From a virus: 20,010 bases of DNA. Within the stretch, counting starts at the first letter, position 1, and each line of letters opens with the position of its first letter. The position numbers and the translations under genes were made by a program. Shown piece by piece: positions 779-19,258 of this stretch. The stretch is from positions 1 to 20,010 of IMG/VR virus record IMGVR_UViG_3300020391_000022; one strand, written 5' to 3'. Below the pieces are notes generated by a model. That model worked only from the letters and a program-made list of their open reading frames with translations. It searched no databases and had not been told where the DNA came from.

Positions 779-1231
779 TTATTGGGAAGCCAAATCTTTT
801 GTAAAAAATTTACCTAAAATATTATCATTAAAAAATTTATCTGGTTTCTCTAAAACTTGATACATAAATTGATATTGGGTTTCATAGTAGGTATGCAATT
901 TTTTATTTGGGGTAAGTTTTATAATATGTCTCTCAAAATTCTCTGGTGATTCTGTATTTGATAATTCTAAAAGTATTTTATTAGAACCATAATAAGTTTT
1001 CCAATCTGATTCTTTGGTTACTCTTTTATGTGTTGGTTTTCTACCTTTGACACCTTCATACATTAATAAGTCTTTTTTTGTTACTTTAACTTTACGGTGA
1101 TGTAAAAGTACTTTTTTGCCTATATAAGATTTATCTGATGGTAAATGAGTTATCCTATATATAAATCCATATGTATTTTTTGGAAATTGAGAAATGTGAG
1201 TTATTTCTTCTCCATTGTAAGTCCAATTCAT
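779..1231 (-). CDS. GIY-YIG endonuclease
   Basis: A 150-residue protein of the GIY-YIG nuclease superfamily, many members of which are phage homing or freestanding endonucleases. The signature halves are visible as Y21-G-F-I-Y25 and S35-Y-I-G38-K-K. They are followed by a basic stretch (residues 45-73), W77-K-x-Y-Y-G-S-N84, and Y115-Y-E117-T-Q-Y-Q-F122, in which E117 is the best candidate for the metal-binding glutamate. The protein is short and has no obvious separate DNA-binding domain beyond the basic region. It starts at ATG 8 bases after the upstream tail gene and ends 21 bases before the primase, so it sits between structural and replication genes as a freestanding gene. Family call confident; whether it is mobile, and its target, are unknown. 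Confidence 0.85.
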   Translation of the reverse strand: MNWTYNGEEITHISQFPKNTYGFIYRITHLPSDKSYIGKKVLLHHRKVKVTKKDLLMYEGVKGRKPTHKRVTKESDWKTYYGSNKILLELSNTESPENFERHIIKLTPNKKLHTYYETQYQFMYQVLEKPDKFFNDNILGKFFTKDLASQ

Positions 1232-13120: not shown

Positions 13121-14977
13121 TTATAATGGTACTACTCTACCTTTAATATCTCTATTTGGGAATTTAACTTCAAATATTGAGGGATCCAAACTTGGGTATA
13201 TTACTTGATTTTGTGTTGCAGATGAAATATCATAAGCATACTGTGAATATCCTGAAGTTGTTCCTGATTTATTTGTTATATTAATATTTTTAACTGTTTG
13301 AACTCCTTCTACATTATCTAATTTAATAAATAAATTTTTAAGTAAAATTGGTTGATTTATTTGAAAATTATCTCTTAAAAAATGTTGTTGTAAATTTAAA
13401 ATACAATTTAATATAACATTATTATTATTAAAATTAGGTAAAACTACAATTTCAAAATCAATAGCTATATTAATAATAAAAGCATCTCTTATTTCTATAC
13501 TGTCTCCTATCATTCTATAATTAGATAAATAAGTTCTTAAGTTCTTTTTTAAAGTATTTGTAGATGTTTGATATTGGTTTTGAGAGTTTTGAGATAAAAT
13601 AAATAAATTTAGAGTTTCAATAGATGAAACTTGATCATCTACTAATTTTGGTTTTTCAATATAAGCTTTAGATATAGACCCAAATTCTGAAGGCATACTT
13701 AATGCCCTAATCATATAGTCATTCAAAGTAACAGTTCTCTGTTGAGTAGCAATTTGCATTAATGTATTTTGTCTAATTTCAGTTATAGTATCACCAGATG
13801 AACCACCATCAGCTACTTGAGGATTATTTGAAGCTAAAGTACCAAATATATAATTTGATGTTGTTCCATTTAAATTGCTATTATTAAATTTAATATTTGA
13901 TGAATTTATTTTTGTTAAAACTCCACTAGTTACATTTGATTCAACACCACCTCCAGTTAAATATCTTACTGTTAAAGTAGTACTTGAAGGAGCAATACCA
14001 TAAGTATTTGTAAAAAGGAAATTTGTAGGTGAATAAGCTGTTGTAAGTTTATCTTGTTCAAAAGGTAAACCTATACCTACATTATTAGGGTTTGGTGTAA
14101 TTATTTCATCTATATCTTTTGGATTGCCTGCTCCAAATTGAATTTGGATATTTTTTTCTGAAATGAATCTTGTAGCAAAACGCCTTTGAACTTTTTTTAA
14201 TTGAAGGAGATAAGGAACATCACCTGCATCAGCTGTATTATTAGGGTCATTAATGTTAGTATTTTTTATTTTATCATAAACCATTTCTTGACCTAAATAA
14301 TCTACTTCATTCCATGTATATCCATCACTATCTGTTATATCTAATATTCCTATAATATTATTATCAGTTATATTAATTGTAGGAAATTGTTGTGGAGCTC
14401 CAAATGTAAAAGTTTGAGTATTTACTGTAGCAGAAATAGCTTTTCTTGTTTTCTTTAAAAGATAATATTGAGGGTCAGTTCCTGCTATTTGATAAATTGA
14501 TACTTCAGTTGGATCTAATGAGCTTGAAAATGAAAAATCACATTTATCCTTCATTAAAAATGATATTTTATTGTTGGAATTTGATGTCACTGTAGTATTT
14601 TCTTCTATTGTCATAGTATAATCATAGTCAGGAACATAATTTCCACCAATTAATTTGGAAGGAACTTGTTGAAATAATTCTATAGTAGCTTGAGCAGCTC
14701 CTGTAGCTTTAGGTTTATAACCAAACATATAAGCTAACTCATATAAATTATTTGTTTGTCTAGCAAATTGGGTAAATGTTTCTTGTAATTGATTATCTAA
14801 ATAAAAAGACATTACATCACTTACATAGGCCGCCTGTTCCATGAACATCATACCAGGTGATGTTGGTGAAAAGTCATTATAAGTGTTAGGAAAATAAGTT
14901 TGTGAAAACTCAATTAATCTAGTTCTTATATCAGAAAAATCTCTATTTAAATATTTTACATCTCTATCTACAGCCAT
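13121..14977 (-). CDS. 6: baseplate wedge protein gp6 (baseplate J family)
   Basis: A 618-residue protein matching the T4 gp6/P2 gpJ baseplate family; T4 gp6 is about 660 residues. The N-terminal region (about 8-110) has the expected pattern for marine T4-like gp6: YLNRDFSDIRTRLIEF, FSPTSPGMMFMEQAAYVSDV, FYLDNQLQE and ELAYMFGYKP. A beta domain follows. Around residues 400-445 the core IRQNTL, QQRTVTLNDYMIRALSMP, SISKAYIE is visible, the typical baseplate_J segment. The C-terminal part (about 485-580) includes IGDSIEIRDAFIINIAID and LLKNLFIKLDNVEGVQTV, which corresponds to the dimerisation region in gp6. In the wedge, gp6 forms the ring around the tail hub and binds gp25 and gp7. Its start codon overlaps the gp25 stop codon by one base, so the two are probably translationally coupled. 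Confidence 0.9.
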   Translation of the reverse strand: MAVDRDVKYLNRDFSDIRTRLIEFSQTYFPNTYNDFSPTSPGMMFMEQAAYVSDVMSFYLDNQLQETFTQFARQTNNLYELAYMFGYKPKATGAAQATIELFQQVPSKLIGGNYVPDYDYTMTIEENTTVTSNSNNKISFLMKDKCDFSFSSSLDPTEVSIYQIAGTDPQYYLLKKTRKAISATVNTQTFTFGAPQQFPTINITDNNIIGILDITDSDGYTWNEVDYLGQEMVYDKIKNTNINDPNNTADAGDVPYLLQLKKVQRRFATRFISEKNIQIQFGAGNPKDIDEIITPNPNNVGIGLPFEQDKLTTAYSPTNFLFTNTYGIAPSSTTLTVRYLTGGGVESNVTSGVLTKINSSNIKFNNSNLNGTTSNYIFGTLASNNPQVADGGSSGDTITEIRQNTLMQIATQQRTVTLNDYMIRALSMPSEFGSISKAYIEKPKLVDDQVSSIETLNLFILSQNSQNQYQTSTNTLKKNLRTYLSNYRMIGDSIEIRDAFIINIAIDFEIVVLPNFNNNNVILNCILNLQQHFLRDNFQINQPILLKNLFIKLDNVEGVQTVKNINITNKSGTTSGYSQYAYDISSATQNQVIYPSLDPSIFEVKFPNRDIKGRVVPL

Positions 14978-15384
14978 TATCCAAAGTTTATTTCTAATGT
15001 ATCACTAATATTAGTATTTATAACATTATAAGTTAATGATACTGTTATTGTATTTAAATCTTCTTGTCTTAATATTTCTAAATTACCTACAATTATATTT
15101 GGAAAAAAATCACCTAAATCAGATTGAATTCTTTCTTCTAAAAAATCTAGATTATCTGTTGTAATTTGTTCAAAAATAAAATTTCTTAAACCTCCTCCAA
15201 ATGTTGGATTAAGAGGTCTTTCACCTTCATTAGTTAAAAAATAGTTTATTAAATTTGATTTAATTGCTTCTTTTGTAGTGTAATTAGATTGAAATACTCC
15301 AGGTGCTGAAAAAGGTATATTAACTCCTACAGCAGCACTTTTATTAAAGTCAATGGGGAATATTTGTTGTGCTTCAAATGCCAT
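14977..15384 (-). CDS. 25: baseplate wedge protein gp25 (GPW/gp25 family)
   Basis: A 135-residue protein, the usual length of T4 gp25 (132). It carries the family signature N52-E-G-E-R-P-L-N-P-T-F-G-G-G-L66, in which E55-R56 correspond to the conserved 'EPR/GER' core strand, followed by IFEQITTDNLDFLEERIQSDLGDFFPNI and a C-terminal strand pair (NTITVSLTYNVI). gp25 nucleates the baseplate wedge and contacts the sheath; the P2 counterpart is gpW. The gene lies immediately before gp6, as in T4 and P2, with one-base overlaps on both sides. Despite an old name, this family is structural and no lysozyme activity should be assumed. Confidence 0.93.
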   Translation of the reverse strand: MAFEAQQIFPIDFNKSAAVGVNIPFSAPGVFQSNYTTKEAIKSNLINYFLTNEGERPLNPTFGGGLRNFIFEQITTDNLDFLEERIQSDLGDFFPNIIVGNLEILRQEDLNTITVSLTYNVINTNISDTLEINFG

Positions 15385-15785: not shown

Positions 15786-17948
15786 CTAATCTGCTTTTAA
15801 ATCATTTTGTTGAATATAAAATATTAACTCATCAATTAAAATTTGGTCATTTGATGAAAATGAAGGTTCACCTTTGAGCATTATAATTCCTTGAGAATTT
15901 TTAGCTATAGCTTGCCTTCTTTTTAACCCTCCAATAGTTACATTATCTACACTTACAGTATCCATTTCAAATCCATTTATATTAGTAACTACAGGTGATA
16001 ATTGTTGAGATTGTTCTTGTGTTGAATTTAATAATTGTTGAGATACTGATATTTGGGTTTGTGTTGTTTCACCTATTTCTTCAGCGCAACTTTGAATTAA
16101 AGCATCTAAAATATTTAATAATAATAAAACTTTTCTAAGTTCTTCAATTATTAATCTTAATTGTATTGTTCCTCCACCTAATTTAGATTTAAAAACTTCT
16201 ATTAAATCTTCAAATTTTTCTATTAAATCTTTAGCTATTAAAACAGGACCAACTGGGTTAGGTGTTGCTACTGTTGATGGAATAAAAGATTGTACCCCAA
16301 CATATATTTTAGCTGCAATAATTGCATCTTGTGCTGTATTAATAGTAATAGGGGGTATTTCCAAAAATTTATTTATTGAATTTATACTTGTATAAAGATT
16401 ATTTAATTGTTTAGTTAGTTTGTTTTTTTTATTAATAATTTTATTTAATTTTTCTAGATTAGAAGGACAAGTTTTAGGAAGATTAGTAATATTTTTAAGA
16501 ACCTCTTCATTAAATTTTGTAACTCCAAAAGCTACTACCATTTTTAAAATTGCAGGTATTAATCTATCTTGAATAGTTCTAAATAATTTTTTTAAAAGAT
16601 TAGATATAAAATCTTTTGGTGATTCTTCTTCTAATATTGCTTTTTGAGTTTCTGTTAAAGCTTTGTTTTCTATAATTTGTTCTTCTAGTTCTTCTTCAAT
16701 AGGAGTTAATTTAATATATCCTAAATCTTTTATAAAATCACCATTACCTTTAATTAATTGAATTGGATTACTTTGAGAGTAATCTTGAGCACTGACTATA
16801 GCTGTAAATTGTTTAAGTTTTTTTCCTGAGATGTTTGGAACTCTTGGATCACCTTTTGATTTTAAATATTCATATATTTTTCTATTTTGTAATATAACTT
16901 CATCATCACGGAAATTACCTGTTGGAATAATTCCAGCATCAACAGCATCTAAAATATCACTAGGAGTAATAAGTTCTCTAATTTCTATATCATTTAATTC
17001 TTTTGAGGATTCAAATGATTCATCATTAAATTGAATATTTAAACTAAAAGTACCATCAGTTTGAGAAGTTGCTTTTTCTTTTGAATCTGTATCTGATTGT
17101 ATACGAGCTCCAGGTATTGGGTTTTTTGAATTTTTATCTATTACAGTTCCTTTAAAAGATTCTGCTATTACTTCAACTTCTTTTAATAATTCATCATCTT
17201 CATCAAGTTCTATAACATTAAGGTTTATTTCTTTTGTTGTAGCTGTTACTTGTTTTGTTATAAATGAATCTACATAACCAGCATATGATATTTTAAGTTC
17301 ATATGTACCAACTGCTAAATCTTGAGATGAAGAGATTAATCCATCAAAATCTGTAGTTAAACCTTTACCTGTGAATTCTCCATTTTGGCTTATAGGTATA
17401 TTAGCATTAGGTAACTCTTCTTTAGTTGAAGAATCTATTACTTTTCCAGTGAATAATATTGATTGGATTGAAGGTTTTGGGGGATTAGGTGGGTATTTAG
17501 ATCTTACAATTTGTCCAGCATAAGTTAAAGATTGAAAATGATCAAGTCCATTAGGAGTTTGTGATGCATTAGGTACACCAGCTCCTCTAAAATCTGCTGG
17601 GCCAATTTGATAATTGGTACTTGGGATTCCACTTTTTATTGCATTGATAGCACTTTTTAATCTATTATCACTAGCAACCCAAGGTTCTATAATAAATATT
17701 TTAGATTTATCATTAACAGCTTTAGCTACTTGTAAAGCATATTTTCCAGCAGCACTATATAAAACAATAGGAGCATTTGGATATTTAATTATTGAAGATA
17801 ATAGTTTTTGTATTTCTGTATGGCCAAAATATAGTAATCCTTCATCTTCACCATATCCATCTAAAAATAATTGAGCTTGATCATTAGAACTAACAAGGTT
17901 AGTTATCCCAGTCATTAATATAACATTAATATTTTCTTTACTAGGCAT
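15786..17948 (-). CDS. multidomain tail protein: hydrolase-like N-terminus, two carboxypeptidase-regulatory-like domains, helical C-terminus
   Basis: A 720-residue protein. Residues 7-150 look like a Rossmann-type or alpha/beta-hydrolase domain: strand NVILMTG, then PIVLYSAAGKYALQVA with a possible nucleophile S65, strand KIFIIEPW, GPADFRGAG, and a final LDHFQSLTYAG with H137. Residues 166-247 are a carboxypeptidase-regulatory-like sandwich (FTGKVIDSSTKEELPNANI, GLTTDFDG, VGTYELKISYAGY). A second copy starts at 266 (KGTVIDKNSKNPIPGARI, QTDGTFSLNI) but seems interrupted by about 70 residues before it closes at 381-414 (DLGYIKLTP). Residues 420-640 are mostly helical, including a Leu-rich helix at 604-618, and the end is a compact beta segment plus the helix DQILIDELIFYIQ. 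No signal peptide is present. The gene overlaps the spike gene stop by one base. The regulatory-like domains are typical of Bacteroidetes surface proteins. Enzymatic activity is conjecture. Confidence 0.65.
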   Translation of the reverse strand: MPSKENINVILMTGITNLVSSNDQAQLFLDGYGEDEGLLYFGHTEIQKLLSSIIKYPNAPIVLYSAAGKYALQVAKAVNDKSKIFIIEPWVASDNRLKSAINAIKSGIPSTNYQIGPADFRGAGVPNASQTPNGLDHFQSLTYAGQIVRSKYPPNPPKPSIQSILFTGKVIDSSTKEELPNANIPISQNGEFTGKGLTTDFDGLISSSQDLAVGTYELKISYAGYVDSFITKQVTATTKEINLNVIELDEDDELLKEVEVIAESFKGTVIDKNSKNPIPGARIQSDTDSKEKATSQTDGTFSLNIQFNDESFESSKELNDIEIRELITPSDILDAVDAGIIPTGNFRDDEVILQNRKIYEYLKSKGDPRVPNISGKKLKQFTAIVSAQDYSQSNPIQLIKGNGDFIKDLGYIKLTPIEEELEEQIIENKALTETQKAILEEESPKDFISNLLKKLFRTIQDRLIPAILKMVVAFGVTKFNEEVLKNITNLPKTCPSNLEKLNKIINKKNKLTKQLNNLYTSINSINKFLEIPPITINTAQDAIIAAKIYVGVQSFIPSTVATPNPVGPVLIAKDLIEKFEDLIEVFKSKLGGGTIQLRLIIEELRKVLLLLNILDALIQSCAEEIGETTQTQISVSQQLLNSTQEQSQQLSPVVTNINGFEMDTVSVDNVTIGGLKRRQAIAKNSQGIIMLKGEPSFSSNDQILIDELIFYIQQNDLKAD

Positions 17949-19258
17949 TATTCAGCAAATGTTGTTTTTGATTTATAAGATTCTATTCTATTTTGAAAAG
18001 TAGTAATTAAACTTTCACAAGCTACAGCAGCTCCTATTACATTAGCTTTTGGTGCTGACACACCAGCAGGCCATATTGTATCTGATTGTAACATTTTACA
18101 TAAAAATGATAATTGATCCATTACTTTATTTAAATCAAATAAAAATTTATCACCTAAAATTAAAGGTTGAGAAGCTTCTTTACTACCTAGTTTAATATGA
18201 GTACCAACATCAACAACAAAATTTGCTTTAGTATCAAAATTAAAACCTTTTAAAGCTCCAAAACTTATAGTTCTTTGAGAACTTAATAATATATGATCTT
18301 TTTTTGAATTAAAAAGTAAACGTCCTGATGATATTATTACTTGATTTCCTGTATATGATGATGGTGATGATGGAATTTCACCCCAAGGCTCAGTGTATGA
18401 ATTATATTTAACACTAGCAGCTGAGATTGGAATTTGTTGATTTGATGTTAAATATATAGATGATTTATCATAGTTTATATCCTCAGTAATAGATGTCCAA
18501 CCCTCATCAGATGATTGAGGATTTTGTCCATTTCTTAAAATTATAATAGGATCTCCATTTTTACCCACCTTTGACCAATTATTCAAGTATGGATTTTGAT
18601 CTGTAACTCTAAAATTGGATTTTAATGATTTAGCAGTACTACCAAATCTAATACTATTACCCCATCTACCTTCATATATTATATCACCTGCAAAAGGTAA
18701 TAATGGATGAATATTATTTCTTTCTATAAAAGTATCTTGTGAAATATTTTTATCACTATTTAGTCTTATACTATTTCCATCTTTGATTTCAGAGTTATAA
18801 TCTGTTTTTCTAATAGGAGATCCAGCGTCTGTTTGAAAATAATCTTTATTTTGTGATGGAGGATTTTGTGGAGTAATTGGGTTTGGATAAGCATTATGAT
18901 GTGGGCTATTCCAAATTCCAATCATGTTAATATAATAAAAAGATTTAGAAGAAGTATTTCTTCCTATATTTTTAGTTGGTAATAAAAATAGTAAAACTAA
19001 TTCATTAACTAAAGGATATGCTGAATATTGAGGTATAAAGGGCTTAGCTGGTAATTGTTTATTAGAGCCAGGAAAATCATCTTCTTCAAAAAATATAGTT
19101 CCTATACTTGACCATCCCCCATATTTTTCAAATTTTGGATGTTGATCATTTAAAATAATATCTGTAACTCTACCTATTATTAATTTTTTATTAACATTAG
19201 ATAATAATGAATGTAATCCTGATGGGTATTCTAATTTATTAGATCTTTCTCTAAGCAT
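17948..19258 (-). CDS. gp5/VgrG-like baseplate hub or spike protein with OB fold
   Basis: A 436-residue protein likely to sit at the centre of the baseplate and pierce the outer membrane. Residues about 24-118 have the strand pattern of the gp5/gpV OB fold: KLIIGRVTDIILND, SIGTIFFEE, AKPFIPQYSAYPLVNELVLLFLLP, YYINMIGIWN. A middle region has GDIIYEGRWGNSIRFGST (191-208), also seen around spike shafts. Residues 305-372 are short beta repeats (NQVIISSGRLLFNS, DHILLSS, NFVVDVGTHIKLGS), compatible with a trimeric beta-helix. The last 60 residues are helical with C387 and C414. I find no lysozyme domain such as T4 gp5 carries between OB fold and helix. One-base overlaps join it to the small gene before and the 720-residue gene after. 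The alternative is a gp27-independent spike of another contractile system. Confidence 0.65.
   Translation of the reverse strand: MLRERSNKLEYPSGLHSLLSNVNKKLIIGRVTDIILNDQHPKFEKYGGWSSIGTIFFEEDDFPGSNKQLPAKPFIPQYSAYPLVNELVLLFLLPTKNIGRNTSSKSFYYINMIGIWNSPHHNAYPNPITPQNPPSQNKDYFQTDAGSPIRKTDYNSEIKDGNSIRLNSDKNISQDTFIERNNIHPLLPFAGDIIYEGRWGNSIRFGSTAKSLKSNFRVTDQNPYLNNWSKVGKNGDPIIILRNGQNPQSSDEGWTSITEDINYDKSSIYLTSNQQIPISAASVKYNSYTEPWGEIPSSPSSYTGNQVIISSGRLLFNSKKDHILLSSQRTISFGALKGFNFDTKANFVVDVGTHIKLGSKEASQPLILGDKFLFDLNKVMDQLSFLCKMLQSDTIWPAGVSAPKANVIGAAVACESLITTFQNRIESYKSKTTFAE

Follow-up and report, generated by a model that had tools for sequence, protein, structure and literature searches.

A conserved anchor with exchangeable fronts between the spike and gp25 genes suggests a mount for envelope-directed cargo in Flavobacterium-phage-like tails

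In phage T4, the lysozyme that opens the question considered here is a domain of the spike protein gp5 itself. We know of no account of the way in which Bacteroidetes myophages get through the envelope with a spike that bears no such domain. The question is raised by a fragment of an uncultured virus, 20,010 bases in length and referred to as the window, in which a 720-aa protein is encoded beside a spike-like protein. Its ORF opens with ATG, contains no internal stop, and overlaps the stop codon of the spike gene, within a contractile-tail cluster that runs from the spike-like protein through the 720-aa gene, a 125-aa protein, and gp25 to a gp6-like wedge (Table 1). The placement between spike and gp25 given in the original prediction is borne out by profile matches to gp25 and to the gp6-like wedge, as well as by synteny in about 80 contigs. 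The claim that the spike lacks a lysozyme is also supported, as searches of the spike-like protein against Pfam, NCBIfam, and the PDB returned no match of any kind. A Phage_lysozyme domain was sought in both the spike and the 720-aa protein and detected in neither, which sets them apart from a T4-type gp5 spike, and T4-type lysozyme (PF00959) was not found in the four genomes or records searched, namely two IMG/VR records of 155-160 kb, Flavobacterium phage vB_FspM_immuto, and Microcystis phage Mel-JY01. The tail cluster ends in a 150-aa ORF (779-1231, minus strand) whose start (YGFIYRITHLPSDKSYIGKK) appears GIY-YIG-like by eye and which perhaps encodes a homing-type endonuclease.

Table 1. 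Features of the 720-aa gene and its neighbours; positions are those of the window, residues those of the 720-aa protein.
Feature	Position	Strand	Basis and remarks
Whole gene, 720 aa; spike gene on one side, 125-aa ORF and gp25 on the other	15786..17948	-	Open ORF; gene order kept in about 80 contigs
N-terminal alpha/beta (hydrolase-like) domain, residues 1-155	17484..17948	-	Model; relatives L012, L014, L087; fold matches
Codons of S65; E88; H137	17754-17756; 17685-17687; 17538-17540	-	
First CPDR sandwich (A), residues 161-250	17199..17468	-	PF13715/PF13620; model strands; PDB fold matches
Sandwich B (second CPDR): first half, residues 264-311	17016..17159	-	Family profile positions 1-45, iE 9e-13; second Pfam stretch
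Mostly helical 65-residue insertion in B, residues 312-376; resembles L076 N-terminus	16821..17015	-	Model; family profile; alignment
Sandwich B (second CPDR): second half, residues 377-417	16698..16820	-	Family profile positions 43-83, iE 4e-10
Helical anchor segment, residues 418-655	15984..16697	-	Low to middling model confidence
Most conserved anchor end, residues 656-720 (NGFEM...RRQAIA...SFSSNDQILIDEL)	15789..15983	-	71-86% identical to relatives compared; common to immuto gp115
Spike-like protein next to it (436 aa); lysozyme domain sought and not detected	17948..19258	-	28% identical to immuto gp116
gp25 baseplate wedge neighbour	14977..15384	-	PF04965 E=5e-9; phrog_261 E=4e-18
gp6-like wedge neighbour	13121-14977		phrog_219 E=4e-10

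The C-terminal 300 residues made up most of the alignment with which 142 relatives were recruited from IMG/VR, 80 of which were kept. Contigs of sufficient length show the spike gene upstream, in some cases separated from the anchor gene by one or two additional ORFs, and the 125-aa gene and gp25 downstream. Among the 74 members with a complete 5' end, counted by pattern-based scans on contigs that in many cases break off close to the gene and include several near-duplicates, an anchor of about 300 residues is conserved and the part ahead of it ranges from 0 to 553 residues. The commonest front is a single carboxypeptidase-regulatory-like domain (CPDR; Pfam PF13715/PF13620; transthyretin-like fold) of about 90 residues. 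Within the gene cluster, variation is greatest in the front and in the spike. Comparison of these sequences shows that the family is built on a conserved anchor (about residues 418-720), preceded in most members by the CPDR that is the second of two in the window protein (B), with different modules placed ahead of it or inside its loop. One relative, L013, carries both CPDRs and a helical anchor 75% identical to that of the window, the closest of the relatives compared in detail, and lacks the N-terminal alpha/beta domain, unlike L012, which retains this domain at 66% identity; modules have thus been gained and lost on a steady anchor.

Both the C-terminal anchor and the gene position place the protein in the family that occupies the slot between spike and gp25 in immuto-like phages. 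In vB_FspM_immuto, the homologous C-terminal anchor belongs to gp115, which lies in the same slot between the spike (gp116) and gp25 (gp113). Unlike the window protein, gp115 (371 aa) has neither a CPDR nor an alpha/beta front. This protein (NC_055915.1, 80392-81507; L009, 8011-9126) is annotated as 'DNA repair ATPase, RecN', a label that looks wrong and is most likely a coiled-coil artefact, given its homology to the baseplate-slot anchor. The immuto relative and one contig from a Flavobacteriaceae MAG link the family to Flavobacteriia, and the source virus is Flavobacterium-phage-like.

The two CPDRs of the window protein are recognised in both sequence and fold. CarbopepD_reg_2 (PF13715) scores 62.3 bits against a cut-off of 32.2 (E=4e-17) over two stretches, the better covering residues 167-260, and PF13620 scores 50.6 bits against 32.3 (E=3e-13). 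An AlphaFold2 model of all 720 residues from a 51-sequence alignment (overall pLDDT 77.7, pTM 0.48) renders both sandwiches with high confidence, blocks of the first being mostly above 90, and the anchor as helical with lower confidence. Model strands at 161-248 make up sandwich A, and those at 261-307 and 382-414 make up sandwich B. Foldseek matched the sandwiches to the transthyretin-like domain of carboxypeptidase D (5aq0, TM 0.78 on target), CnaB pilin domains, and hydroxyisourate hydrolase, in keeping with a transthyretin-like beta-sandwich. The two sandwiches of the original prediction, including the one it had located at residues 166-247, are therefore present. In SusC/TonB-dependent receptors a CPDR is followed by a plug and a beta-barrel, and Pfam matched neither of these in the 720 residues. 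The literature searched contained no account of a CPDR in a phage baseplate. A second CPDR-like ORF of about 176 aa lies distant from the tail cluster in a related phage of 155 kb (G002, the record behind L085, 13786-13992).

Sandwich B differs from an ordinary CPDR, being interrupted by another module in the window and cut into two genes in relatives. Family profiles were built because Pfam scored weakly on rejoined split CPDRs. A profile of CPDR B, made from eight sequences of other family members, matches the window protein in two pieces (264-311 and 377-417) that meet at about profile position 44; the insertion is therefore delimited as residues 312-376, 65 residues in place of the roughly 70 first predicted. 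It resembles the N-terminus of L076: the alignment scores 67 where 1000 shuffles gave no more than 44, and the phmmer E is 5e-4. A similarity to the N-termini of L014 and L087 noticed by eye was rejected, as 27 and 47 of 1000 shuffles scored as high. Long inserts also occur in L076, L080, and L082, at about profile positions 38-43 of CPDR B, the pieces of L082 and L080 matching more weakly. In L080, a 65-residue module (INTTHDxxYxYKK...FPNWTEA...INRDAIVE) is found twice, near the N-terminus and in the CPDR B loop (residues 1-75 and about 150-215), and L076 carries the same doubled module, with an N-terminal copy and a loop copy.

The same region of CPDR B is where genes part. The anchor ORF opens at profile positions 37-44, the second half of the sandwich, in L041, L043, L045, L054, and L061; it opens at positions 25-28 in L059 and L070 and, behind another module, at position 48 in L062. 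A profile of the first half, trained without the upstream genes of the split contigs and run over 788 ORFs, recovered, apart from the anchor proteins, the C-terminal ends of upstream ORFs in L061 (E 3e-5), L062, L064, and L065 (4e-5), and L070 (9e-5), and more weakly the upstream ORF of L043 (0.02) and the start of the short L059 ORF (0.01). CPDRs in the upstream ORFs of L024, L025, and L026 were matched as well, and no unrelated ORF among the 788 gave an E below 0.2. In L045 and L054 this profile detected no first half, and in L041 the match was at noise level only. By these matches, the gene is broken inside CPDR B in several lineages with both pieces retained, and the two pieces may rejoin into one sandwich. 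Another break point is seen in L021, L022, and L024-L026, where the upstream ORF consists of a CPDR and a short helical tail with a charged end, and the anchor ORF starts inside the helical part.

The N-terminal alpha/beta domain was modelled alone from five sequences, few of them effectively distinct (pLDDT 83, pTM 0.84). The model is three-layered, with strands 9-12, 38-41, 61-64, 84-88, and 113-115 alternating with five helices; S65 stands at the turn between strand 61-64 and helix 65-77, and H137 opens the last helix (137-151). A minimal alpha/beta hydrolase carries its nucleophile after the third strand and its His where the last helix begins; S65 and H137 match these places in the model, and pancreatic-type lipases have the catalytic acid just after the fourth strand, where E88 is found and could serve as that acid. 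In the BFVD, the nearest fold is A0A6J7WH09, annotated as an alpha/beta hydrolase (E 4e-4, TM 0.52), and Bacillus subtilis lipase A is among the PDB matches (E 9e-3, TM 0.48); in the model, the window domain resembles both in its three layers and in the placing of Ser and His, an order of elements that flavodoxin-like folds also show. A reading as an SGNH hydrolase was dropped, since the Ser follows the third strand rather than the first. Single-sequence, alignment, and DNA-pattern scans of viral contigs, together with one scan of genome contigs, located the domain outside the window only in L012, in L014 and L087 (33-34% identical), and, in part, in L015, and phage records yielded no meaningful match. 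S65, E88, and H137 are unchanged in L012, L014, and L087, and so in distant relatives at 33-37% identity, a conservation that carries little weight because just a handful of relatives bear the domain. Residues 1-20 of L014 and L087 resemble an EF-hand or dockerin-like start (DTDGDGIVTFMDL; Pfam EF-hand E about 0.1) and may form an extra module before the alpha/beta domain.

Phages with other cargo in this slot provide a broader view. In Mel-JY01, the slot is occupied by a GH19 endolysin-like protein that matches lytic enzymes and endolysins in the PDB (best E 4e-13). A DUF5675 domain (PF18925), whose fold is that of Tlde1-like L,D-transpeptidases, is fused to the anchor in L074, encoded by its own gene just upstream in L045, L054, L062, and L070, and absent from the window. 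Its invariant H169...S177-x-G179-C180 pattern recalls L,D-transpeptidases. Such cargo looks peptidoglycan-directed, and the proposal that this slot can supply envelope enzymes is strengthened accordingly by these two examples.

Taken together, the best overall explanation, to which we give a probability of roughly 55%, is that the 720-aa protein is a mount in the baseplate or spike region bearing interchangeable envelope-directed cargo. The modular mount architecture is very probable; that its cargo is directed at the envelope is somewhat favoured. The anchor would be built into the baseplate or hub, CPDR A would act as a spacer and CPDR B as a coupling, and the front module would be a tool that acts on the envelope and is delivered along with the spike. 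In the window, the alpha/beta domain might work as a serine hydrolase, using S65, H137, and perhaps E88 to attack an ester or glycan of the envelope, a job resembling that of the T4 gp5 lysozyme. The likeness to gp5 would thus lie in breaching the envelope at the tail tip, whereas here the cargo comes from the neighbouring gene and is carried by an anchor of its own. A more tentative proposal is that CPDR B is a plug-and-socket joint, tolerating modules in one loop and buildable from two separately encoded pieces, so that an envelope enzyme of the DUF5675 type, produced as a separate protein, would be held on the baseplate anchor by completing the sandwich; the window protein would be the fused form, with a module inserted in the loop.

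What the window's own module does is less settled than the mount. Instead of an enzyme, the alpha/beta domain may be a Rossmann-like binding or structural module making glycan or protein contact, with the CPDRs as adhesive or spacer elements. The order of its secondary structure fits a hydrolase core and equally fits flavodoxin-like folds, and in the PDB search the scores of PurE, LarB, and flavodoxin domains are close to that of lipase A because the strand order is common. No sequence family was recognised, with no Pfam match up to E=10 and a probability of 0.12% in profile comparison with lipase A; the sole match of the sequence profile to the PDB, a 33-residue strand-helix piece of quinolinate synthase (E 0.01-0.04), was taken as chance. 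The nucleophile elbow (L63-Y64-S65-A66-A67) has Leu at position -2 in all relatives and departs from the small-x-Ser-x-small pattern; no acid is conserved after the fifth strand, the one used in lipase A, D119 being Ala in L012. Many family members, moreover, front only CPDRs or modules without assignment. On the other side, S65 and H137 occupy the nucleophile and His positions of alpha/beta hydrolases and are kept at 33-37% identity, and enzyme-like domains occupy the slot in other phages. The S65/H137 pair of the original prediction is upheld as regards its hydrolase-like positions and left doubtful as an active site, and the domain is called 'hydrolase-like' rather than 'hydrolase' on account of the Leu, the lack of a profile match, and the equal scores of the other folds. 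That the domain is catalytically active is possible, judging by the model, and hydrolysis would be the single most likely action of the module at odds clearly short of even; a non-catalytic binding module is about as likely.

The remaining alternatives concern the CPDRs and the protein as a whole. Since CPDRs are common in Bacteroidetes surface proteins and the family is linked to Flavobacteriia, they might be recent host-derived modules whose main function is contact with a receptor, much as originally proposed. This is unlikely, as most members whose fronts are complete have CPDR B, located at the joint of inserts and gene breaks, which does not resemble a rare acquisition; no recent transfer from the host need be assumed when the CPDR is a standing joint of the phage family. 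For the second CPDR, a role as a joint is preferred to envelope contact, since modules insert and genes split at its loop. The splits were read from metagenome contigs and might reflect sequencing or assembly errors or decaying genes, but this is quite improbable: they recur across several separate contigs and involve two types of module, the spacing is ordinary (-8 to +38 nt, with proper starts; a further small ORF lies between in L041), and fused counterparts exist, L053 for L061 and L074 for L062 and L070, covering both module types. Equally improbable is that the protein is a hub assembly factor or chaperone that leaves the virion, its fronts being incidental. The long helical anchor of low confidence and a weak, insignificant Pfam match to the secretion chaperone CesA (E 0.07) would agree with such a role, but the fronts look extracellular or envelope-directed, as with CPDR and DUF5675, and vary, like the spike, more than the rest of the cluster.

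The mount with exchangeable cargo remains the preferred reading, and the conserved tail-end anchor with its exchangeable fronts suggests that such phages exchange the tools they use on the cell envelope while keeping the mount constant. Such a mount would supply a list of candidate envelope enzymes, including the alpha/beta domain, DUF5675, GH19, and several modules without assignment, and would allow the pairing of modules with hosts to be compared. A natural beta-sandwich split between cargo and mount, if true, would be an unusual means of attaching an enzyme to a virion.
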